Source: Bacteroidota bacterium
Lineage (GTDB): Bacteria; Bacteroidota; Bacteroidia; Chitinophagales; UBA10324
Assembly: GCA_014190575.1 (NCBI GenBank)
Contig: BJGQ01000033.1
Span: 2,427-36,458, forward strand
Length of the DNA: 34,032 nt
Direction: 5' to 3'
A program made the position numbers and the translations under genes. Shown here piece after piece: positions 1 through 34,032 of this stretch (position 1 is its first letter; the number at the start of each line of letters is the position of its first letter). Below the pieces are notes generated by a model that was given only the letters and a program-made list of their open reading frames with translations, searched no databases and was not told the origin of the DNA.

Positions 1-237
1 GATATGGTTTGCGTGGAATCACCTCGAGGTAAAGTGGATATCAAAGCAAGAATAACTGATGAAGTAAAACCCGGAATTCTCAGCACCACTTTCCATTTTC
101 CTGAAGTGATGTTAAATATTATTACCAGCGACGAACACGATAGTGAAGCCATGTGCCCCGAGTATAAAGTTGTTGCTGTAAACATCCGCAAGAGCAAGGG
201 AGGTTTTAAAAATAAAAATGTGCCGTTGAAGATTTAA
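1..237 (+). CDS. Formate dehydrogenase-like molybdopterin oxidoreductase, C-terminal fragment
   Basis: This is the last 78 codons of a gene that begins upstream of the window; the frame is open from the first base, so the ATG at base 4 is not a real start. The residues VKPGILSTTFHFPEV, then NIITSDEHD and CPEYKVVAV, match the end of the molybdopterin-dinucleotide-binding domain of formate dehydrogenase alpha subunits, where the usual pattern is pGxxfxtFHFpE, a tsd segment and then PEYKvxaV. The family oxidises formate using a bis-MGD cofactor. Only the cofactor-cap domain is visible, so the substrate cannot be confirmed; a related bis-MGD oxidoreductase is the alternative. A strong hairpin terminator follows 18 bases after the stop. 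A degenerate second copy of this 3' end lies at 1304-1489. Confidence 0.8.
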   Translation, partial: DMVCVESPRGKVDIKARITDEVKPGILSTTFHFPEVMLNIITSDEHDSEAMCPEYKVVAVNIRKSKGGFKNKNVPLKI

Positions 238-255
238 TTCAATACTTTAAAAATG

Positions 256-288
256 AAAAGTCCTCTGATAAACTATCAGAGGACTTTT
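256..288. terminator. Bidirectional hairpin terminator
   Basis: A perfect 15-bp inverted repeat (arms 256-270 and 274-288, loop AAC) starts with AAAA and ends with TTTT, so it can terminate from both sides. It lies between two convergent genes, the oxidoreductase ending at 237 and the minus-strand gene ending at 309. Confidence 0.85.
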
Positions 289-308
289 ATATTGAAAATT
301 ATTTTAAA

Positions 309-1037
309 CTATAAATAATCACCTACTCCCGCATTAGTTGGAGCTGGCTTGTTTATAACAACATCAGCCGGAGCACTGACTTTTGTTAACCCTGTAATTT
401 TATACCCTGGAGGCTGACCTGTTTTACAATCACGATACCACGCAGACTCAGGTTTACTGCCATCAACAATTAAATGTTGGTAGGCAATTACTCTTGATCC
501 AAGTCCTTGTATTCCACAATCAAAAGTCAGGAATCGCTCCTTGTGATCATCAGGTGTTTTTGGTCTTAAGATAGCTGGTGTGTCCTTTATTGTAAATTCT
601 AAAATTCCACCATTCCTTTTCAGGTAGTCGCGAACAATGTTTGCAGCTTCGCCATTTTCCTTTCCTTTTGGAAATGTATCTGTTGGAATCTTAGTTCCGT
701 TTTTGCTTTTTAATTTTGTAATTCCTGGTGTGCTAATATCGCCTCCCATTACACAGTAGTATGTTTGTTTATATCTGTAACGGCAATTGTTATAAGTTTT
801 TGAAGCTGGATTACGCTCATATTGATCAAATTCAACTGTCCACCATTGCTTTTTATTCTTTTCAAGCATAGTAATAGTTTCTTTCCATTCGAGCCGTGGC
901 ATTTCAACAAATTGCCCCACTCCCAATGGATTATTGTGGTACTTTAAAGTGAAAGTGATTTCAAAATAATTTCCATATTCATCGGGTCTGTTTGAAATTT
1001 TAGCCGTTGAAATATTTTCGAGACTCCAGTGTGCCAT
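309..1037 (-). CDS. Hypothetical protein, 242 aa, unknown function
   Basis: I do not recognise the family. The predicted protein starts MAHWSLENI. It has no signal peptide and no membrane segment, is rich in aromatic residues and lysine, and contains paired cysteines around residue 80-95 (NNCRYRYKQTYYCVMGG) and further cysteines near 175 and 205. This suggests a soluble cytosolic protein, or one exported by a route without a classical signal. It stands alone, convergent with the oxidoreductase gene and facing away from the relic at 1304-1489. The gene lies exactly between the intact 3' end of the oxidoreductase gene and its degenerate copy, so it may have arrived with the rearrangement that created the duplication. 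That is inference from position. No flanking integrase or transposase is visible. Confidence 0.7.
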   Translation of the reverse strand: MAHWSLENISTAKISNRPDEYGNYFEITFTLKYHNNPLGVGQFVEMPRLEWKETITMLEKNKKQWWTVEFDQYERNPASKTYNNCRYRYKQTYYCVMGGDISTPGITKLKSKNGTKIPTDTFPKGKENGEAANIVRDYLKRNGGILEFTIKDTPAILRPKTPDDHKERFLTFDCGIQGLGSRVIAYQHLIVDGSKPESAWYRDCKTGQPPGYKITGLTKVSAPADVVINKPAPTNAGVGDYL

Positions 1038-1303
1038 ATTTAATATTTTTGTAGGCCTTAAATATAATTGTCTAGTTTAATTATGAATATCTTTCTTCGC
1101 ATAAGTATAAGTTAATTCAACAAATCATTTTATACGCATGATTGACATCACGAACTAAATATTCACTCACCGGCCAACAATATCTTAACAAATTGTTAAA
1201 ATAAGCAAGAAGAAAATTATTGATACTCATATCAATATAAAAGTTCCGAAAGTCGATGTATTCAAAGAATTAATTCAGTTAATTATTATAATATAAATTC
1301 AAT
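1038..1303. other. AT-rich intergenic stretch without a gene
   Basis: No plausible coding frame is visible between the unknown gene and the oxidoreductase relic. A short inverted repeat TTAACAA-A-TTGTTAA lies at about 1192-1206. I found no convincing promoter for the minus-strand gene. Similarity to the oxidoreductase gene begins only at about 1304. Confidence 0.5.
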
Positions 1304-1489
1304 AATAACTGATGAAGTAAAACCCGGAATTCTAAGTACCACTTTCCATTTTCCAGAAGTGCTGTTAAACATTATAACCAGCGACGAACATGATACGAAG
1401 CCATGTGCCCCGAGTATAAAGTGGTTGCGGTAAACATCCGCAAGAGAAAGGCAAGTTTTAAAAATAAAAATGTACCGCTGAAGGTTTAA
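1304..1489 (+). pseudogene. Truncated, frameshifted second copy of the oxidoreductase 3' end
   Basis: These 186 bases align with 51-237 (187 bases) over their full length up to and including the stop codon, with 16 substitutions and one deleted base (near 1395, where codon AGT has become AC). The deletion shifts the frame and brings in a stop at 1431. Ten of the 15 substitutions in intact codons are synonymous (for example CTC/CTA, CCT/CCA, GTT/GTG), so the copy diverged while still under protein-level selection and decayed later. There is no start and no upstream part of the gene. It is therefore a remnant of a paralogue or of a displaced allele, not a fresh tandem duplication. Confidence 0.9.
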
Positions 1490-1555
1490 CGCAAACTTTT
1501 CTGTGAGCCAATAAAATAATTCGAAATCTTCTTAAGGTTTTTAGGATAAAACAAA

Positions 1556-1600
1556 AAAATCATTCATAAATTTTTTAATAAAAAATTTATGAATGATTTT
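1556..1600. terminator. Strong AT-rich hairpin terminator
   Basis: A perfect 21-bp inverted repeat (arms 1556-1576 and 1580-1600, loop AAT) is flanked by A-rich and T-rich ends. It lies 32 bases past the stop of the minus-strand PorE-like gene and also downstream of the plus-strand relic, so it can stop transcription from either side. Confidence 0.85.
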
Positions 1601-1632
1601 AGGAGAAGAAAATAATTACTTATAAATCAGTA

Positions 1633-3738
1633 TTATTTGTCTTCTTCTTTTTCTAATTGTTTTTCTTCCTCAATAGTATCAACTGCATCTGGATCAAAAC
1701 CAGAATCACCTTGTTTGTAAATCACATCTTTACCAGGGATAACACCGATAATTTTAAAATCAGTACGACGATTTAACTGACGGCAAGGTTCACAATCTTT
1801 TCCATCATCAGTTGTTTCTTTTACAAGTAATTCTCGCTTACCCATACCCTTTGCAACCAATCTTTCTTTTGAAATACCCTTGTTCAACAAATAATTGACA
1901 ACGCTTTCTGCTCTTTTTTGAGAAAGAGGATCGTTGTATTTATCAGTTCCTTTTCCATCAGTATGAGATCTGATTTCTATTTGAATTGTTGGATTTGCAA
2001 CTAACAAGTTATACAACGAATCTAAGCCCTTAAATGATTCAGGTCGAAGACCAGCTCCATTAAAATCATAAAAAATATTTTCAATAACAATTGGCTCTTT
2101 GGGTGGTATAGGAGTTAAATAAATATCCACCCTCATTGTATCATTATCATCATATTTTCTAACAACATTAAAACTTGCATCATTACTGAAATAGCCTTCT
2201 TTATCGGCTGCCAATTTATAAGTCATTAAGGGTTGAGTATCCCAGAAATACATAGTGTCTCTTTTTGAAAGCTGATCTTTCCCCCATTTAACAGTATCAT
2301 TTGAAACCATTATTACTTTTGCATCAGGCAATTTCTGTTTGGTTTTTGCATCAAAAACATATCCACGAACTGCATAATAAATAACTCTTGGATAACGGAT
2401 TTCCCAAATATCATCGCAACATGTTTCGCTCTTCACTGAAATAGTTCCGGGACGATTTGAAACTACATAACCAATATATTTCTTATCAGATAAAGTATAG
2501 TACATATCATCAACACTACTGTTAATCGGATATCCCATATTTTTTGCAGACTCCCATTTTTTCAAAACACCTTTTGATTTAAAAACATCATAGCCCCCCA
2601 TTCCAGCCCATCCATTTGAACTGAAATAAAGCATATAGTTTTTCGAATCATAGTATGGAGTTATATCATCCCCTAATGTATTTATTTTCTTACCGAGATT
2701 CATAGCAGGAGTCCAGGCATCACCCTTCTTTATACTATACCAGATATCCATTCCACCTGTTCCTTGAGCGCGATTACTGCTGAAATATAAAACTTCTCCT
2801 TCTTTTGAATTTCCAATCGCCGGATGTGTTTGAGTAGAATCTGAATTTACTTCCGCTGGTAATTTTATCGGGTTACTCCACTTGCCATTGCTCTTTACTT
2901 CAGTCATATAAATATCGCAATGCATTTTCATTGATGTTTCATCTAGTTTACATCGAGTAAAATAAAATCTTTTTTTATCGGCTGAAAAAGCTCCATTACC
3001 GTTATGTGAATCTTTATCGTTTACAGGCATATCGGTATAAATAGAACTTTCTCCAAAAGTTGAATCAGTTAATTTAGGTACAGAATAAAATTGAGCAAAT
3101 GATTGATTCCTTTTTTTATCATCTAAAATAATAATAGTATCTGATTTCAATGAAGAATACAATAGCAAATCATTACCATAAGGAACAGGTCCAAATTCGG
3201 TATAAGGAGCATTCACATTTGCGCCTAAATGTTCAACCTTTACCGTATCAGGATTTGCAATAAATTTTATAGCCAAGTCACAACCTTCCGCTTGCATTTT
3301 TGCCTTCTTTTTCATGGCAGATGCATTTAATCCCTTATAAGTTTTTTCGAACTTATTAAAAGCTGCTTTAGCTTCAGAATATTTTGCGTTATACTTCAGA
3401 CACAAAGCATAATAAAATCCTGCATCAGGGTATGTATCAACATTAAGGTCCTGCAATACTTTAAACCATTTCTCTGCCTCTTTATAATCACGAAGCAACA
3501 TTTGAGCCTGAGCAATCTGATTTACAGCATATGCATTATTGCTTTGCTTTTCATACACCTTTTCATAATAAGAAATTGCATTGAAGTAACTACCCATATT
3601 AAAGAGATAGTCAGCCATTTTAAGACTTTGCTTCGCATTCAGGTTTTGTACAGTCTGTGCCTTTGAAAAGACAGGTGCCAAAAGAAATACTATCAGGATG
3701 CTCTTGCTCAAAAGTTTCATGGTATTGCTGAGATTCAT
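1633..3738 (-). CDS. PorE-like OmpA-family protein (TPR, PD40 propeller, CRD, OmpA)
   Basis: The 701-residue protein has a signal peptide (about 1-28, ending SKAQ), TPR-like helices at about 36-150, a PD40/WD40-like beta-propeller at about 175-445 with blades such as LLLYSSLKSD and VLYFSSNRA, a carboxypeptidase-regulatory-like domain at 449-545, and an OmpA-type peptidoglycan-binding domain at 549-667. In the OmpA domain D594 (SHTDGKG) and R609 (LSQKRAES) are the expected diaminopimelate-contacting pair. This domain order is that of PorE, the protein tethering the type IX secretion machinery to peptidoglycan. The gene follows a PorP/SprF gene by 38 bases on the same strand, a common pairing in Bacteroidota. 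Many such pairs exist per genome, so it may be an accessory paralogue and not the core PorE. An internal ATG at codon 7 (MKLLSKS) is an equally good start. Confidence 0.88.
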   Translation of the reverse strand: MNLSNTMKLLSKSILIVFLLAPVFSKAQTVQNLNAKQSLKMADYLFNMGSYFNAISYYEKVYEKQSNNAYAVNQIAQAQMLLRDYKEAEKWFKVLQDLNVDTYPDAGFYYALCLKYNAKYSEAKAAFNKFEKTYKGLNASAMKKKAKMQAEGCDLAIKFIANPDTVKVEHLGANVNAPYTEFGPVPYGNDLLLYSSLKSDTIIILDDKKRNQSFAQFYSVPKLTDSTFGESSIYTDMPVNDKDSHNGNGAFSADKKRFYFTRCKLDETSMKMHCDIYMTEVKSNGKWSNPIKLPAEVNSDSTQTHPAIGNSKEGEVLYFSSNRAQGTGGMDIWYSIKKGDAWTPAMNLGKKINTLGDDITPYYDSKNYMLYFSSNGWAGMGGYDVFKSKGVLKKWESAKNMGYPINSSVDDMYYTLSDKKYIGYVVSNRPGTISVKSETCCDDIWEIRYPRVIYYAVRGYVFDAKTKQKLPDAKVIMVSNDTVKWGKDQLSKRDTMYFWDTQPLMTYKLAADKEGYFSNDASFNVVRKYDDNDTMRVDIYLTPIPPKEPIVIENIFYDFNGAGLRPESFKGLDSLYNLLVANPTIQIEIRSHTDGKGTDKYNDPLSQKRAESVVNYLLNKGISKERLVAKGMGKRELLVKETTDDGKDCEPCRQLNRRTDFKIIGVIPGKDVIYKQGDSGFDPDAVDTIEEEKQLEKEEDK

Positions 3739-12147: not shown

Positions 12148-14886
12148 TCATGAACGCTCCTTTCTCCACTTCATTATTTCCATTCCGGTAACTCCGAAAA
12201 ATAAAATCAGGATCAATACACTGCTTGCCATTGCAACTTTTTCCCCTGTGAAATAACTCACAGGTTCAAATTTGAATTCTATTTTATGGTCGCCGGCCGG
12301 AAGTTTCATTCCGCGCAAAACATAATTGCAACGGAAGTAATCAGCAGGTTTTCCATCCACAAAAGCATCCCATCCTTCAGCATAATAAATTTCAGAGAAA
12401 ACAACCAATCCTTCTGCCGATGAATGTGATTGATACATCAAATCATTTGGTTGATACGAAGTGAGTTTTATGTTTCTGGTGGAATCAATTGATGGATCAA
12501 ATCCTTTCAGTTGTTCTTCAAATCGTTTGTCAACTATTGCATTTGCACGGGGAGAAAATGAATAAACGAATTGCGTAGTAAAAACCGATGCGGTTTTAGA
12601 AACCGCGTCGGTTTGCGTTACATATTTTTCCTGCTCATTGGTTTCTTTGTTAATGCGCGAACCGATTCCGAAAGTGTCAACGATTCCACTACTGAACGCA
12701 AATGATGATGGGTCAAACTTCGCATCACCAATTACAATGTTATCGTGATTGCCAACTAAAACTTTACTGGTTGGTTTTCCATTTACTGTGAAACTGCTTC
12801 CATCTAATATTTGCATTTCATACATTTTACCAATACGATTCAATTCTTCATCTGCATTCGCAACTACCATTGCTGAATCAACAAACCATGCATTGCCCAA
12901 TGCCTCGGGATTGTATTGTGCTTTTTCTGTTTTGTCTTTTCCCTGAGCGAAAATAAAATATCGGGTGTTCAACATATCGAGCACTGCTGTGTTTTGTTTG
13001 CTGATGTGATTTTCAATTAACTCCTGATAACGACGAAGTTTCGCCGCGTGATAACCACCAACTGATTTATGAAAATACGATGTACGCGATTCATTAAAAG
13101 TATTACTCGCTGTGTTCAGCACACGATAATCAAGTGACTGGTCTTGCAAAATCTGAAGGTCGGCTTGCGATGGTTGATAATAATTATCGTAATCACTCTT
13201 CGAAACAAAGTTGTCATCTTTCAAATATCTTTTTCCAACTGTGAACATATCAACGAAAACAAAAAGCGCCAATGCAGAAACAGTTAATGTGTTGCTCAAT
13301 CTGTTTTTTAAGTACAACCAAATTGCCCCACCTGATAATAAAATAAAAATTAAAGAGCGAATAGAATCCATGCGCATTAGTGAACCGCGGTCTTCCGTTA
13401 TTGCCTTCACTAACCAATCAGGATAACGGGAATCCTCACCCCCTTTAAAATCAAAAAACGATGGCCCCACCAATGCAAAGAGTAAACAAATTCCTCCAAC
13501 CAAATAAAATGTCAACATTAATTTTTTGATAACAACTTCTGTTTCATACTTGCGACGAAGAATTGCATCAAGTGTAACAAATGCAAGCAGCGGAATACAA
13601 AATTGCGGTATCACTGCAATCATTGTTACCGTTCTGAATTTATTATATACCGGAAAATACTGAAAGAACAAATGGGAAATGAACATGAAGTTGTGCCCCC
13701 ACGAAAGCATAACGCCCAGTGCACTTATACTAAACAACCACCACTTCATTCTATCCTGCAACAAAAACATTCCGAGAACAAAAAGAAAAATACAGATTGC
13801 TCCGATGTAAACCGGACCTGATGTGAATGGTTGGTCGCCCCAATACAAAGGCATTTGTTTTAAATAATCTTTTAATTGCTCGCTACCCACGCCTTGCGCC
13901 TGCATTGCTTTTGCTGTGGCGCTGGTTTCGCTTAACGGAGCACCTGAAGAACCTCCGTAAAAATTCGGAATCAACATGGTGAGCGATTCCATTTTTCCAA
14001 AACTCCATTGAAAAGCATAGTCTTCATCCAATCCACCTTTTGATTGTGTGTTGCTCGATAGTTCTGATTTTCCTCGAATGGTTTCATTTCCATATTCCTG
14101 AGTACTCCATAACATCGATAGATTTGAAAGCACACCAAACACCGCCGCAATCACTAAAACTCCAACTGCTTTTAAAAAATGATTCCAATCTTTTTTCAAT
14201 ACAGTATTTACAAATTCAGTAATACCCAAAGCAAGAAGAATAAAAAATAAATAGTAAGCGATTTGCAAGTGATTCGATTTTACTTCTAATGAAACAGCAA
14301 GCGCAGTGATTACACCTCCGAGTAAATATTTTTTCTTTCTGAAAACAAAAAGCACTCCTGCAATTACCAACGGCATGTAACCGATTGCACCTAATTCAGA
14401 ATTGTGACCAGCATCAATTAAAATTAAATTGAAAGTGGAAAGACCAAATGCAATGGCTCCTGCTATACTCAGCCACGGAGAAATATCTAATGTGAGCAGC
14501 AACAAAAAGAATCCGACAAAGGCAATGAAAATTAATTGTGACGGATGCGGAAATCCCAATGTTAAAATTTTATCAATGTATCGTGCAAGGTTGCCATTAT
14601 ACACTGTCGAAATCTGAAAGGCAGGCATGCCACCAAACATACTGTTGGTCCAGAGCGCTTCCTTGCCATTTGCCTTTCGGTAATCAGATAATTCCTTGCT
14701 CGCTCCTTTTCCCTGAACAATATCACCTTGTTGAATTGCTTTTCCATCAATCAGCATTGGGCTGAAATAAAGAAAAGTGATGACCGCAAAAATTACAATG
14801 GCAGTTACAATCGGAAGCCAGTTAATTTTTGCTGATGCGGTTTCTGCGCTTGCGACAGAATTGGTTTTTTGATTTTTCATTTGCAT
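12148..14886 (-). CDS. YfhO-family multi-spanning membrane protein
   Basis: The protein has about 912 residues from the ATG chosen here. A first membrane helix (WLPIVTAIVIFAVITFLYF) is followed by an extracytoplasmic loop with QQGDIVQGKGASKELSDYR, about 10-12 further helices, a periplasmic soluble domain in the last 350 residues and a final helix (VLILILFFGVTGMEIM). This is the layout of the YfhO family, GT-C-like proteins linked to polymer glycosylation. Downstream on the same strand is the GT4-like gene. The frame is also open from an ATG at 14931, but the candidate promoter at 14906-14935 lies inside that extension, so I prefer the start MQMKNQ at 14886. A palindromic repeat is embedded in the frame at 12584-12612, encoding residues around TDAVSKTAS in the periplasmic domain. 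Confidence 0.85.
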   Translation of the reverse strand: MQMKNQKTNSVASAETASAKINWLPIVTAIVIFAVITFLYFSPMLIDGKAIQQGDIVQGKGASKELSDYRKANGKEALWTNSMFGGMPAFQISTVYNGNLARYIDKILTLGFPHPSQLIFIAFVGFFLLLLTLDISPWLSIAGAIAFGLSTFNLILIDAGHNSELGAIGYMPLVIAGVLFVFRKKKYLLGGVITALAVSLEVKSNHLQIAYYLFFILLALGITEFVNTVLKKDWNHFLKAVGVLVIAAVFGVLSNLSMLWSTQEYGNETIRGKSELSSNTQSKGGLDEDYAFQWSFGKMESLTMLIPNFYGGSSGAPLSETSATAKAMQAQGVGSEQLKDYLKQMPLYWGDQPFTSGPVYIGAICIFLFVLGMFLLQDRMKWWLFSISALGVMLSWGHNFMFISHLFFQYFPVYNKFRTVTMIAVIPQFCIPLLAFVTLDAILRRKYETEVVIKKLMLTFYLVGGICLLFALVGPSFFDFKGGEDSRYPDWLVKAITEDRGSLMRMDSIRSLIFILLSGGAIWLYLKNRLSNTLTVSALALFVFVDMFTVGKRYLKDDNFVSKSDYDNYYQPSQADLQILQDQSLDYRVLNTASNTFNESRTSYFHKSVGGYHAAKLRRYQELIENHISKQNTAVLDMLNTRYFIFAQGKDKTEKAQYNPEALGNAWFVDSAMVVANADEELNRIGKMYEMQILDGSSFTVNGKPTSKVLVGNHDNIVIGDAKFDPSSFAFSSGIVDTFGIGSRINKETNEQEKYVTQTDAVSKTASVFTTQFVYSFSPRANAIVDKRFEEQLKGFDPSIDSTRNIKLTSYQPNDLMYQSHSSAEGLVVFSEIYYAEGWDAFVDGKPADYFRCNYVLRGMKLPAGDHKIEFKFEPVSYFTGEKVAMASSVLILILFFGVTGMEIMKWRKERS
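12584..12612. repeat. Palindromic repeat inside the YfhO frame
   Basis: ACCGATGCGGTTT (12584-12596) and AAACCGCGTCGGT (12600-12612) form a 13-bp stem with one mismatch. The core matches the intergenic palindrome at 32484-32510 at all but about four of 27 positions. In the minus-strand frame it encodes part of the soluble domain, without a stop. Confidence 0.75.
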
Positions 14887-14905
14887 GGAATAAAAACTCC
14901 GCGTG

Positions 14906-14935
14906 CAAAATAGATAGATGAAATGAATCACACAA
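14906..14935 (-). promoter_or_regulatory. Candidate promoter of the YfhO operon
   Basis: On the minus strand a TTG (complement of 14933-14935) is followed after 19 bases by CTATTTTG (complement of 14906-14913), a partial match to the Bacteroidota -33/-7 consensus that keeps the TTTG half. Initiation would fall about ten bases before the ATG at 14886, which supports that start. Confidence 0.4.
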
Positions 14936-31400: not shown

Positions 31401-31638
31401 CGAGCAAAAAGGTTATATCATTTGTGTGATTGAAGACAATGGAATAGGAAGAGAAGCCGCGCGCGAAGCAAAAAGCAAATCGAGTGGTCACCGCAAATCG
31501 CACGGCATGGGAATTACCTCGCAGCGGGTGATAGAATGGAATCTGGATAATGAAGCGGCAGTAAACATTTCTGATTTGTATGATGAAGAAAAGAAAGCAG
31601 CCGGAACCCGAGTTGAAATAAAATTGAAAATTGTTTAA
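28492..31638 (+). CDS. Regulator-propeller / Y_Y_Y / LytS-type histidine kinase
   Basis: The 1048-residue protein has an N-terminal signal (IAVLCLFFFEKIVAQ), then a double regulator propeller at about 35-690 (RGFIWVGTTDGLFRFDG, GRIWIGTNTAGINLL and further blades), a Y_Y_Y domain at about 718-783, one membrane helix at about 800-820 (LWFRVLIILLIALCVYLIF), a short coiled coil, and a LytS/YehU-type kinase with H854 (RAQMNPHFIFNCLNSINSF) and a HATPase domain (YVENSIWHGLLHK, then EDNGIGREAA). Propeller kinases in Bacteroidota sense periplasmic ligands, often glycans, through the propeller. The partner is the LytTR regulator 80 bases downstream. Unlike hybrid systems of polysaccharide utilisation loci, there is no fused receiver or AraC domain and no SusC/SusD genes are nearby. 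Confidence 0.92.
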   Translation: MKFLWQRNLFSFFIAVLCLFFFEKIVAQDINSQFLFHHYQEEDGLLNQNINCLLQDSRGFIWVGTTDGLFRFDGYKFTAYRYNSRDTNSISGNQINSIAEDSKGRIWIGTNTAGINLLNGYSNKFIHYQLSGNANEHSGRINSIVCSPDGKVFASCDLFVGFYQFDEKKNSFTHFLLSDFHSEQTNKNYGSGYTYSLLLKGNDSLFIGTRYGLYCLNLKNKSISEFILPNYDFKDEANMLCRIIKNNPFNQHLIIGTWGNGLKELNTSTREAKSFWYHPVKPEGMGLFNIIQDVGFLSTDKIFIASMDENLCILNTEKNTFSFFTHDDSNAGSIPNGKCHCILQDRDGIFWFGFENGLCTYNPRTSRFHNQFFTNTFPYINAGNITESVSGDTIFVPTALGDGIHLYDKEGNFLANMQTELNANGDQFIYGSTLDDEGNSWFISGIAWFKFLAHEKKFGETAHDLRLRELTNRRMVVKGAAHQMILQFGNKQVEVRNTITNEIIFRKKLIYPFADSNQVNINDIERAPDGHYWVAYLYAVIEYDENFNLLKAYPEKINDTTYIGQGHIFDLAVGSNGKVFIVSSDGGLCSIDPKKNNFKNYADGNPLAPGRCNGITIDANEVVWLATENGIYRFNSSTEIFTLFDKQDGLPNNNIAYILTQPSGRIYYWFERGWDWFYPNEFSVLKNLSPIVFLSVKVNEKEISTADFEKEILLDYTKNNLSFDFSLLNYANPKKNSYAYQLEGGEVVWHNSGTQHQLNYSSLAPGNYTLKIKAANSEGVWSEYSCAIKFSIAPPYWQTLWFRVLIILLIALCVYLIFKLRVRIVKREEKLKSNYQKKISELETKALRAQMNPHFIFNCLNSINSFILRNDTDVASEYLTKFSRLIRLVLDNSRTSIISLSSELECLKLFIEMEEMRFADKFEYSIHVDEKINAETIKVPPLILQPYVENSIWHGLLHKNEKGKLKIEISEQKGYIICVIEDNGIGREAAREAKSKSSGHRKSHGMGITSQRVIEWNLDNEAAVNISDLYDEEKKAAGTRVEIKLKIV

Positions 31639-31646
31639 GTGAGCAA

Positions 31647-31679
31647 AACTTTTCCAAAGTTTCAAACTTTGGAAAAGTT
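31647..31679. repeat. Perfect 33-bp palindrome between kinase and regulator
   Basis: Arms 31647-31662 and 31664-31679 are perfectly complementary over 16 bases, centred on a single C. It lies nine bases after the kinase stop and 40 before the regulator start. It could be an intra-operon attenuator or terminator, a dyad operator, or a dispersed palindromic repeat; the poor T-run after it (GTTTTC) makes a plain terminator less certain. Confidence 0.7.
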
Positions 31680-31699
31680 GTTTTCACAAATTGAATTTA

Positions 31700-31723
31700 C
31701 CAATGAACCAATAAACCAATGAA
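31700..31723 (+). repeat. Octamer tandem repeat containing the regulator start codon
   Basis: Three units CCAATGAA, CCAATAAA, CCAATGAA run into the regulator gene. The ATG of the third unit (31719) is its start. The ATG of the first unit (31703) opens a three-codon frame ending at TAA 31712-31714 in the second unit, five bases before the true start. Confidence 0.6.
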
Positions 31724-32471
31724 CAACATCAAAGCAATTCTTATTGACGACGAAGTAAACTGCACAGATATTCTTTCCATTCAATTGAAGAAACACTGCT
31801 CGAATGTAGAAGTGATTGCCGTTTGCAATTCGGCAAAAGATGGAATCGAAAAAATAAATGAGCTCAACCCCGATGTAATTTTTCTCGACATTGAAATGCC
31901 GCATATGAATGGATTTCGTTTGCTCGAACAATTAACCCCCTTCAATTTCGAAGTGGTTTTCACTACTGCCTATGATGAGTTTGCCATTAAAGCATTTAAG
32001 GTTTGCGCAACCGACTATCTGCTCAAACCGATAGATAAAACAGAATTGATTGAAGCAGTACGAAAAGTGGCAACGAAAAAAAACGGCAACAACAATTCAA
32101 GCACACAGATGACTGAACTATTGAAAATGATTTCATCACAATCGCAGGAGAAAAAAATTGCACTGCCTACAAATGATGGAATGTTATTTCTGAAGCCTTC
32201 AGATATCATTCGTTGCGAAAGCGACAGCAACTACACTTATGTGTTCCTTGCCAACGGAGAAAAAATTTGTGTGACAAAAACTTTAAAACAGGTAGAAGAA
32301 TCACTGCACGGATTTTCTTTTTTCAGAGTACATCAATCGCACCTGGTCAATCTCAATCATGTAATAAAATATAACCGCGACGATTCCGGCATTATTACAT
32401 CAGATGGAACTACAATCACCATCGCACGCCAGCGCAAGGAAGGATTTTTAGAAATGTTTTCGAAAATATAA
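31719..32471 (+). CDS. LytTR-family response regulator
   Basis: The 250-residue protein has a receiver domain (ILIDDEVN with D10 and D11; phospho-acceptor D57 in VIFLDIEMPHMNG; TTAYDEFAIKAF; lysine in YLLKPIDKTEL) and a LytTR DNA-binding domain at about 150-248 (DIIRCESDSNYTYVFLANG, later FFRVHQSHLVNLNHV). LytTR regulators bind tandem direct repeats about two turns apart. Its partner is the propeller/LytS kinase upstream. The exact repeat at 28419-28448 is a candidate autoregulatory site and the dyad at 32547-32559 a possible site before the next gene. Translation starts inside an octamer repeat. Confidence 0.94.
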   Translation: MNNIKAILIDDEVNCTDILSIQLKKHCSNVEVIAVCNSAKDGIEKINELNPDVIFLDIEMPHMNGFRLLEQLTPFNFEVVFTTAYDEFAIKAFKVCATDYLLKPIDKTELIEAVRKVATKKNGNNNSSTQMTELLKMISSQSQEKKIALPTNDGMLFLKPSDIIRCESDSNYTYVFLANGEKICVTKTLKQVEESLHGFSFFRVHQSHLVNLNHVIKYNRDDSGIITSDGTTITIARQRKEGFLEMFSKI

Positions 32472-32483
32472 TTCACTTATCAG

Positions 32484-32510
32484 CCGACGCGGTTTCAGAA
32501 ACCGCGTTGG
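32484..32510. terminator. GC-rich palindrome after the regulator gene, also a dispersed repeat
   Basis: CCGACGCGGTTTC (32484-32496) and GAAACCGCGTTGG (32498-32510) form a 13-bp stem with one wobble, 12 bases after the regulator stop. It can end the operon transcript, though the following bases (TCTTGCACTC) are a poor T-run. The sequence is nearly identical to the palindrome inside the YfhO gene at 12584-12612. Confidence 0.6.
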
Positions 32511-32546
32511 TCTTGCACTCTTCCCGAATTCTCTGTTGTATTTCCA

Positions 32547-32559
32547 AATACTAAGTATT
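32547..32559. promoter_or_regulatory. Dyad AATACT-A-AGTATT, possible operator
   Basis: A perfect 13-base dyad lies 73 bases before the start of the secreted repeat protein gene. Its half-site AATACT is also the end of the direct repeat upstream of the LytS gene at 28419-28448. The half-site is short, so chance is possible. Confidence 0.25.
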
Positions 32560-32578
32560 GCTGCTGCATTCTCAAATC

Positions 32579-32611
32579 TTTAAAACACTCATTTTAATTT
32601 TAACACTTTTG
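32579..32611 (+). promoter_or_regulatory. Candidate promoter of the secreted repeat protein gene
   Basis: TTT (32579-32581), 22 bases, then CACTTTTG (32604-32611) is a one-mismatch -7 element. It shares ACTTTTGTAAAA with the FKBP promoter at 20040. The ATG is 21 bases beyond. Confidence 0.4.
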
Positions 32612-32632
32612 TAAAATCAAAAAAATAAAGCC

Positions 32633-34032
32633 ATGAAAAAATTAATCTTTCTTATTGCAATTGCTTTTGCAATTGACAATGCACTTTTCACCAGTTCCGT
32701 TTCGGCACAATGGAGTTTAACCGGAAATGCAGGTACAACTGCAGGAACTAATTTTATCGGCACTACTGATGCAAAAGATTTTGTTTTCAAAACAAACAGC
32801 ACTGAAAAAGGAAGAGTGAAATCAAACGGCCTGTGGCAATTCGGTGCCACCACTAATCTTGCAAAAATTGATTCGGGTGGAAATCTTTCATTCGCAGGAA
32901 ATGCGGCTTATAAAGTTGCCGGAAATAAATATGCATTTCAGTATGCAGGCAATCCAAATTATGGGTTGTTCTTCAACGCACAATCATTGTTGTATGAATT
33001 CAGAACAAGCACTGCTGCTTCCGTATTTTCTATTGGAGCAAACACAGGAAATGGAATTTTTACAGGCAATTTAAAAGTTGGCGCTTATACTTTTCCCTCA
33101 ACTGACGGAACAAGCGGACAAGTACTGAAAACAAATGGTGCAGGTGTGCTGACCTGGAGCGCTGATAATTCCGGAACCGGAACTTCGCAATGGACAACCA
33201 GCGGCTCAAACATTTATTACAACACCGGTAATGTTGGAATCGGAACAACAACTCCAGCTTCATTGCTTGAAATTTCTTCTGCTCAGCCAGACGCTAAAAT
33301 CGGAATAACAAACAGCGCAAACTTTGGTCGCCTGTTGTTTGCCCAGTCCGGAACAAATTTTAGTTCGGTTCAACAAATAGGCAGCACCTACGGTACAGCA
33401 AACAGACAAAATGCTTTTGAGTTTATGAATCTAACAGCATCGGGTCCCATTTCCTACTGGACCGGTGGCAGCGAGCGCATGCGAATTATCAGCACAGGAA
33501 ATGTTGGAATCGGAACTGTTACACCAAACGCAAAGTTGAATGTGGTTTCTACCGGGTCAAATGTGATGAACATTGATGGAGGCGCTAACATGTATGTAGG
33601 CTTGTATGAAGGCGGAATTTATAAAGGATATTTCGGATCATACTCTGGTGGAGCAGATGATATTGATTTTGGAACAGGAGGGAGTAATCTTTCAGGCAAA
33701 TTGAATTTTGTTATTCAGTCGAATCCTAAAATGACGATTGATGCTGCCGGTAATGTTGGTATAGGAACTACTTCACCAGTTGCTAAATTGCATGTATCAC
33801 TTGCCGATATAAATGTTCCAACAGCTGAATTTGTGAATACAGCAATGGGACCAAATATCAGTTGGGTAAATTTTGGCTCAACAGGTGATTGGTATATCCG
33901 CTCTTCATCCAATTCAGGAAAAGTAATTCTGCAGGATCAAAGTACTTCTACCGGTCCGGTTTGTATCGGAACCACACAATCAGCAAGCGGATACAAGTTG
34001 TGTGTGGACGGAAAAATAATTTGCGAAGAAGT
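32633..34032 (+). CDS. Secreted repeat protein, tail-fibre/S74-type, C-terminus cut off
   Basis: The frame is open from the ATG at 32633 to the window end (466 codons, no stop), so the gene continues beyond. A signal peptide (MKKLIFLIAIAFAIDNALF, cleavage near VSAQW) leads into low-complexity beta-rich sequence in which GNVGIGTTTP-like motifs recur (33231, 33500 and 33753 regions), preceded by DGTSGQVLKTNGAGVLTW, a sequence common in large secreted Bacteroidota proteins. The visible end SGYKLCVDGKIICEE is the usual lead-in to a C-terminal chaperone-of-endosialidase or coiled-coil tail domain, which would trimerise the fibre; that part is outside the window. It follows the LytS/LytTR pair and is a plausible target of it. 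Confidence 0.85.
   Translation, partial: MKKLIFLIAIAFAIDNALFTSSVSAQWSLTGNAGTTAGTNFIGTTDAKDFVFKTNSTEKGRVKSNGLWQFGATTNLAKIDSGGNLSFAGNAAYKVAGNKYAFQYAGNPNYGLFFNAQSLLYEFRTSTAASVFSIGANTGNGIFTGNLKVGAYTFPSTDGTSGQVLKTNGAGVLTWSADNSGTGTSQWTTSGSNIYYNTGNVGIGTTTPASLLEISSAQPDAKIGITNSANFGRLLFAQSGTNFSSVQQIGSTYGTANRQNAFEFMNLTASGPISYWTGGSERMRIISTGNVGIGTVTPNAKLNVVSTGSNVMNIDGGANMYVGLYEGGIYKGYFGSYSGGADDIDFGTGGSNLSGKLNFVIQSNPKMTIDAAGNVGIGTTSPVAKLHVSLADINVPTAEFVNTAMGPNISWVNFGSTGDWYIRSSSNSGKVILQDQSTSTGPVCIGTTQSASGYKLCVDGKIICEE

Follow-up and report, generated by a model that had tools for sequence, protein, structure and literature searches.

How does the same short palindrome come to be translated within one gene and to lie just beyond the stop codon of another? 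The question is raised by a stretch of 34,032 nucleotides from a Bacteroidota bacterium (GenBank assembly GCA_014190575.1, contig BJGQ01000033.1, positions 2,427 to 36,458), termed the window here, which carries one copy of the palindrome inside yfhO and another after a gene that we take to encode a LytTR-type response regulator, a name carried over from a preliminary description of this DNA rather than drawn from a family library. The answer we favor, with a probability of roughly 0.7, is that this palindrome, termed family 1, is a non-autonomous mobile element resembling the repetitive extragenic palindromes (REPs), made of inverted half units, moved by a REP-associated tyrosine transposase (RAYT) and filtered by selection. 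The features concerned are as follows.

12148..14931, minus strand: yfhO, host gene of the first palindrome copy (Pfam PF09586, E = 3.5e-15)
12582..12614, no strand assigned: 33-bp palindrome, family 1, inside yfhO (covariance-model E about 7e-12, site in the training set)
31719..32471, plus strand: gene presumed to encode a LytTR-type response regulator, 5' of the second palindrome copy
32481..32513, no strand assigned: 33-bp palindrome, family 1, 9 bp past the stop of the LytTR gene (covariance-model E about 6e-10)

The family 1 unit is 33 bp long and reads AGACC-GACGC-GGTTT-NNN-AAACC-GCGTC-GGTCT. It consists of two inverted 15-bp half units of the form RACC-N5-GGTY with a 3-base loop between them (a 15-3-15 layout), and the consensus of five aligned copies from the genome is AGACCGACGCGGTTT NNN AAACCGCGTCGGTCT. 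The preliminary description had recognized both copies, at coordinates covering the core only, and its figure of about four differences in 27 bases was close: a hand count on the alignment gives 3 in those 27 bases and 6 in the 33 of the whole unit. With up to 3 mismatches allowed, a 17-base core matches the window four times (two sites, both strands) against 0.10 expected, and none of 100 shuffled windows reached four matches. Folding z-scores on the plus strand are -6.4 for the yfhO copy and -4.5 for the LytTR copy; those on the minus strand are weaker (-4.9 and -1.7), and there 11 of 200 shuffles fold as well as the LytTR copy. A scan of the window against Rfam gave no match above the gathering score.

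The palindrome is repeated across the genome and the genus. A covariance model trained on five genome copies, both window copies included, was searched against 60 related genomes, this one among them, at E-values up to 0.01 and with filters that may lose weak matches. The 3.19-Mb genome itself (G000) holds seven clear copies, with E no higher than 8e-9 on the better strand, of which five belong to the training set and two, on C68 and C37, lie outside it; two further matches are marginal (E 0.01-0.05) and two are at chance level (E 6-8). Seven of the 60 genomes have a match at E <= 0.01. The genus accounts for 35 copies (7, 0, 12, 1, 10 and 5 in G000 to G005, respectively), and the 10 other genomes of the same family that were searched have none. 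Related palindromes with a different center occur in two genomes of other families, six copies with TGACA in G016 and one with TATAA in G037. By a simple caller of open reading frames (ORFs) of 100 aa or more, which stands in for real gene calls, 8 of the 35 genus copies are inside genes and 27 outside; of the latter, 19 are no more than 40 bp from a stop codon and 11 no more than 40 bp from a start codon, with 3 near neither. This sample was found with a structure model and is therefore biased toward pairing; the pattern scans described below are the less biased evidence.

The copies are also polymorphic between species. The place after the LytTR gene, compared in two relatives, holds the full palindrome in G000, a single half unit (AAACCGCATCGGTTT) in G002 and neither in G004. 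Three other copies adjoin genes that we take, from their sequences, to be of saccharopine type, HPPD type and SCP2 type. The copy after the saccharopine-type gene is absent from both relatives that were readable there, G001 and G005 (G003 and G004 gave a wrong anchor and G002 stopped at a contig edge). The copy before the HPPD-type gene is absent from all three relatives read (G002, G003 and G005), and the copy before the SCP2-type gene is common to G003 and absent from G002 and G005, the loci of G001 and G004 being without an anchor. Differences of this kind between sister species are expected of a mobile repeat.

In-frame palindromic insertions in genes are best known from Rickettsia. In the present genus, eight copies lie in frame: in yfhO and the gene for a lipoyl-E2 acyltransferase (G000), in polA (G002, with a decayed copy in G005), and in ispG/gcpE, mnmG/gidA, ligA and an HlyD-type lipoprotein gene (all G004). 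Pfam supplied the identities of seven of the eight host proteins, all but the PolA of G005. Six copies are read as KTDAVxKTASV and two, those in LigA and the HlyD-type protein, as DRxGFxNRxGL. Between conserved flanks, MnmG of G004 is 20 codons longer than all five orthologs compared (G002 and G005 gave no match) and LigA of G004 is 19 codons longer than all six (G007 lay outside the LigA and PolA comparisons, and G008 also outside the latter). The HlyD-type protein of G004 is about 20 aa longer than its orthologs in G002 and G005, the two that were read among five matches besides G004. Each of these three extra stretches contains the palindrome plus an extra half unit, and the MnmG and LigA orthologs have no similar sequence at the insertion site. 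The lipoyl-E2 protein of G000 exceeds by 7 codons the four genus orthologs shown as DNA, that of G001 being more divergent there. IspG of G004 is 10 residues longer than in G001 and G003, 3 longer than in G000 and G005 and 1 longer than in G002; in G000, G002 and G005 the same loop is occupied, again in frame, by a palindrome of unrelated sequence, GTTGTTGGT-N6-ACCAACAAC. The PolA linker carries KTDAVSKTASVS in G002; that of G000 and G004 has another palindrome, and the linker peptides of G003, G005 and G001, being similar to that of G002, may be read as decayed copies.

Judged from these comparisons, the palindrome is gained in several genes, without a fixed insert length, and the host proteins presumably work, since their domains are intact. 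The proposal of the preliminary description, that the palindrome is a mobile repeat which can insert and leave the reading frame intact, is thus borne out for the family, with 35 copies in five of the six genus genomes, presence and absence at orthologous sites, eight in-frame genic copies, and the extra codons of MnmG and LigA.

The PolA linker is highly variable in the genus in the segment before QKDLFG and displays assorted palindromes and palindrome-like peptides (L127, L143, L145, L146, L151, L153). The linker palindrome of G000 and G004 was considered as a further repeat family and rejected: it is matched once in each of G000, G003 and G004 and not at all in the 8 other genomes searched.

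Minus-strand translation of the yfhO copy gives QTDAVSKTASVF within a 927-aa ORF. The copy was thought to add residues to YfhO, and it does so weakly: the protein of G000 is longer by 2 codons than those of G002 and G005, by 1 than those of G001, G003 and G004, and by 3 than that of G007, so that the net gain over the five genus orthologs is one or two codons and not 11. At the site of the palindrome these orthologs read KSDATSGKK, KSDAASGKK, KADAALVKPK, KADAALVKPR and QSDAVSTNKK, a partly shared peptide. The same peptide was not found in distant taxa, where its presence would have marked native coding sequence; a segment of about 90 aa around the site is missing from YfhO in 8 genomes outside the genus and is present in G007. 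When the genes were scanned for the first half unit, the orthologous site was the best or joint-best match in four of the five orthologs, at 10-11 of 15 bases, the G004 sequence being a 250-aa fragment; in G002 the site scores 9 bases and is third best in the gene. The small gain and the half-unit match in relatives suggest either that an older copy in yfhO has eroded in the relatives or that the element entered a partly similar stretch and replaced it. The yfhO copy is likely to have replaced, or grown out of, native codons, and is no clean insertion.

The same layout, with other centers, extends well beyond the genus. Of 395 genomes of the phylum, 33 contain the pattern GACC-N5-GGTTT-N3-AAACC-N5-GGTC, with N5 left free; they belong to 20 of the 171 genera and have up to 18 exact sites each. 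A reversed control pattern had no site in any of the 395 genomes. Pairing of the N5 arms was not demanded by the pattern and was nonetheless perfect in 35 of 47 sites fetched from 10 genomes, with one mismatch in 8 and two or three in 4. In viral-contig collections the arms were perfect in 73 of 86 distinct sites, with one mismatch in 11 and more in 2. The N5 sequence varies by genome (TGACA, TAACA, TTTCA, GACGC and others), and several N5 sequences coexist in some genomes. Outside the genus the sites are mostly intergenic: only 2 of the 47 fall in frames of 150 aa or more, both near the 5' edge. A second set comprises 33 sites at 30 loci, nine of these loci coinciding with places among the 47; it has five sites in frames of this length: RAYT frames at L158, L179 and L183, an unnamed frame at L183, and L185. 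The last is a Cas3 gene (2-2221, minus strand) with a GACCTGTCA-type palindrome at 1501, read in frame as DLSGLENLTGL between the HD and helicase domains.

The exact GACGC core was also sought in a named-genome collection of 84,980 species, which returned 51 stretches. Nine are from the Chitinophagaceae genus; the others are from a single Syntrophobacteraceae metagenome-assembled genome (MAG; 16), Chloroflexi MAGs (16), an Anaerolineales record (9) and a Deltaproteobacteria MAG (1). The outer AG and CT, which the query did not specify, are both present in 49 of 52 exact-core sites. Isolated sites might reflect binning error, an explanation that hardly suits 16 copies on 16 contigs of one MAG. 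In the Syntrophobacteraceae MAG the 33-mer sits within a larger repeat with similar flanks (aatatttgtccgtgacatcc ... cccaatcttggacgattact; L230, L235, L238, L239 and others) that resemble imperfect terminal inverted repeats. In G251 (L189, L190) some copies have flanks in common and are spaced 354-365 bp apart, as if they belonged to a longer duplicated block.

The layout is associated with RAYT genes. In G037, palindromes with N5 TATAA stand on both sides of a gene for a 214-aa HUH transposase, and palindromes flank the RAYT gene on both sides at L035, L171 and L183. In addition, a palindrome lies in frame inside the RAYT at L158 (DQTGFENLSGL), L179 (DLTGFQNLSGL) and L171 (LQGFKNLECL) and in an incomplete frame at L183 (NLQGFENLGGL). 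Its position is constant, between the PNH[FL]H motif and the QFS.[LF]FN segment, and the N5 inside equals the flanking N5 in L171 and L183, the two cases where both could be read. Of six RAYTs examined, these four have an internal palindrome and L035 does not; L266 has one near its 5' end, from another family. Among the first five of these proteins, the four besides L179 share 36-48% identity with it. All six match NF047646 (E 3e-10 to 1.3e-19, 40-70.5 bits), below its cut-off of 80, and PF01797 matches four of them below its cut-off and L035 and L183 not at all. A homology search of plasmids returned one record for L035 and seven for L179, one of these covering, as the tool counts it, at least 80% of the query; the best was from Aureibacter. 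The corresponding search of viral contigs returned no relative.

From this association we infer that a RAYT mobilizes the palindrome. The RAYT, an HUH/Y1 transposase of single-strand DNA, would recognize the hairpin where the DNA is single-stranded, probably on the lagging strand, and would move or copy it to new sites. Selection would then retain only insertions between genes, at gene ends, or in loops that tolerate them in frame. Survival in frame would be helped by a length of 33 bp (11 codons), by a consensus that is free of stop codons in any frame outside the loop, and by the shortness of the peptides. The window copies would be ordinary members of the family, the yfhO copy having been gained by replacing native codons or atop an eroded half unit.

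A more elaborate version takes N5 as a specificity code, with each RAYT lineage mobilizing the palindrome borne in its own frame, which would be the master copy; the agreement of inner and outer N5 in L171 and L183 is the basis for it. Translation of the master would hold the element to an 11-codon, stop-free unit, so that its offspring would enter loops in frame, and RAYT and N5 would be transferred together across phyla. If true, the offspring would colonize loops of the essential enzymes PolA, LigA, MnmG and IspG. As a complete chain we consider this doubtful.

Several observations weigh against mobilization by a RAYT. The RAYT loci were fetched for holding the palindrome, and the share of them with a copy is not a frequency. 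No clear family 1 copy lies near the 20 Y1-transposase loci that were fetched (of 42 listed; 10 of the 18 in the genus), where there was one short match at E 0.18. The RAYT of G002 goes with family 3, and no RAYT was tied to the GACGC palindrome. Y1 genes and copy number are uncoupled: G003 has 5 Y1 matches and one copy, while G007, G008 and G011 have Y1 genes and no palindrome copies. The Aureibacter relative of the RAYT has no such palindrome within 1.5 kb. Neither a target-site duplication nor an exact empty site was identified; at the intergenic sites the spacers have diverged, so that exact empty sites could not be drawn. Nor does the palindrome have the GT[AG]G foot. Finally, the net gain of one or two codons in YfhO within the genus, and of 7 in E2, means that insertion is not simply of 33 bp.

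Some of these points would follow if the palindromes grew in place, imperfect inverted sequences being perfected by template switching during replication with neither transposase nor insertion. This fits the small gain in YfhO and the half-unit match at the orthologous yfhO site in four of five relatives, the 250-aa fragment among them, as well as the lone half unit after LytTR in G002 and the extra half units in MnmG, LigA and the HlyD-type protein. Compensated double changes in individual copies (L043, L058, L059, L060, L063) point the same way; they could reflect template-switch correction or repair, or else selection, including selection on RNA. Template switching cannot, however, account for one 33-mer recurring at 35 places in a single genus and again in other phyla, and it leaves the MnmG and LigA sites, with nothing similar in their orthologs, unexplained. 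Growth in place is therefore unlikely as the origin of the family.

Alternatively, the palindrome may be a functional RNA or DNA site selected at gene ends, such as a bidirectional terminator, an mRNA stabilizer or an operator bound by protein. The nearness of 19 of the 27 intergenic copies to a stop codon (40 bp or less), the plus-strand hairpins that outdo their shuffles and the continued complementarity of the arms are all as expected of such a site. The second window copy had been placed where a terminator is expected; its position after the stop codon is what speaks for that role, and a scan of the LytTR region for a GC-rich hairpin followed by a T run found no terminator-like site in 31600-32700, so an intrinsic terminator after LytTR was rejected. 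A site selected at gene ends is also hard to reconcile with 8 of 35 copies inside genes, presence and absence at the same gene in sister species, and the lack of any copy in G001. We consider it quite unlikely as the primary function, although a secondary role may have arisen after insertion. That the yfhO copy is native coding sequence matched elsewhere by chance has a negligible probability in spite of the partly similar peptide in genus orthologs, given four window matches against 0.10 expected with none of 100 shuffles reaching four, the same peptide in E2, PolA, IspG and MnmG, and the absence of the segment from YfhO of 8 more distant genomes.

The palindrome invites comparison with known systems. 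Quentin et al. 2018 (PMC6006769) describe a subclass 2.4 of TnpAREP/RAYT, equivalent to Bertels group 4, in Bacteroidetes and several other phyla. As in that subclass, the palindromes here flank the RAYT gene and sit in frame inside it. The subclass 2.4 REPs are of two kinds there, canonical long REPs whose stem base has three G-C pairs and double-foot REPs that end in GT[AG]G and C[TC]AC; family 1 differs from both in its AGACC..GGTCT ends, its 15-3-15 layout and its variable, mostly self-complementary N5. One of the 35 genus copies and 2 of the 52 exact-core sites have GT[AG]G no more than 6 bases from an end, and no genus copy has it at both ends. The RAYTs of L158, L179 and L266 have SS after the core, which PMC6006769 tabulates for other subclasses, so that assignment to subclass 2.4 would be tentative. 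At L116 (329-1493, G034), two of three adjacent RAYT-type frames carry a double-foot palindrome inside, GTAGGGGCAATTCATGAATTGCCCCTAC, which matches the published subclass 2.4 type.

Di Nocera et al. 2013 (PMC3733652) treat the GTAG- and CGTC-tagged REPs, palindromes of 20-40 bp that lie mostly by gene ends and of which the CGTC type includes Bacteroidetes; some are in frame, many in genes of DNA synthesis and repair, including those for DNA polymerase I and DNA ligase. The tag, as described there, is an unpaired GTAG or CGTC at one end, whereas the family 1 palindrome is symmetric and untagged. A CGTC-tagged REP, with its stem of 8-9 bp and loop of 4-5 bases, was accordingly rejected in view of the symmetric 15-bp stem, the 3-base loop and the lack of an unpaired tag. 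The same source describes the Rickettsia palindromic elements (RPEs), which lie in frame inside genes whose proteins are likely functional; family 1 is like them by description, and the RPE-1 type is described as longer.

With 27 of its 35 genus copies outside genes, family 1 is a short genome-wide repeat, mostly intergenic; it works like a REP yet lacks the GT[AG]G foot. REPs in frame in RAYT and other genes are already published, and the family 1 palindrome varies that theme. A full-text search, which most subscription papers lie outside, found no published description of the family 1 palindrome or of in-frame repeats in Chitinophagaceae, and searches for the literal palindrome strings matched only unrelated papers. 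One genus of Chitinophagaceae has two palindrome families in frame in genes of replication, tRNA modification and isoprenoid synthesis, with both at one place in the IspG loop of sister species. It offers a comparative system for studying the entry of a short selfish repeat into essential proteins and its persistence there. Covarying N5 could make the specificity between transposase and repeat readable from sequence, and the presence of the exact core in MAGs from other phyla suggests that a very small element has spread horizontally.

Two other palindrome families occur in the genus. Family 2, the GTTGTTGGT-N6-ACCAACAAC palindrome of the IspG loop, has 7, 0, 16, 2, 9 and 4 copies in G000 to G005 with at most one mismatch. 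Several are read in frame within long ORFs, giving VVGENTNNG or VVGQATNNG; example loci are L135 (1888-1911), L280, L289, L292, L301, L304, L305 and L307. Family 2 also occurs near Y1-transposase genes, at a distance of about 10 bp in G005 and about 400 bp in G002. Family 3 shares the 15-3-15 layout and is represented in the window by a single copy.

31647..31679, no strand assigned: third palindrome, family 3, AACTT-TTCCA-AAGTT-NNN-AACTT-TGGAA-AAGTT

The same palindrome is found at the orthologous place in G002. In that genome the family 3 unit, AACTTTTCCAAAGTT-NNN-AACTTTGGAAAAGTT, stands at both ends of the RAYT gene (L266), and family 1 was accordingly rejected as the partner of this RAYT, on C82. 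The upstream copy falls within the open frame, before the conserved domain, where the position of the start codon is ambiguous. Two more long hairpins in the window, at 1555-1601 and 255-289, are unrelated in sequence to the palindrome.

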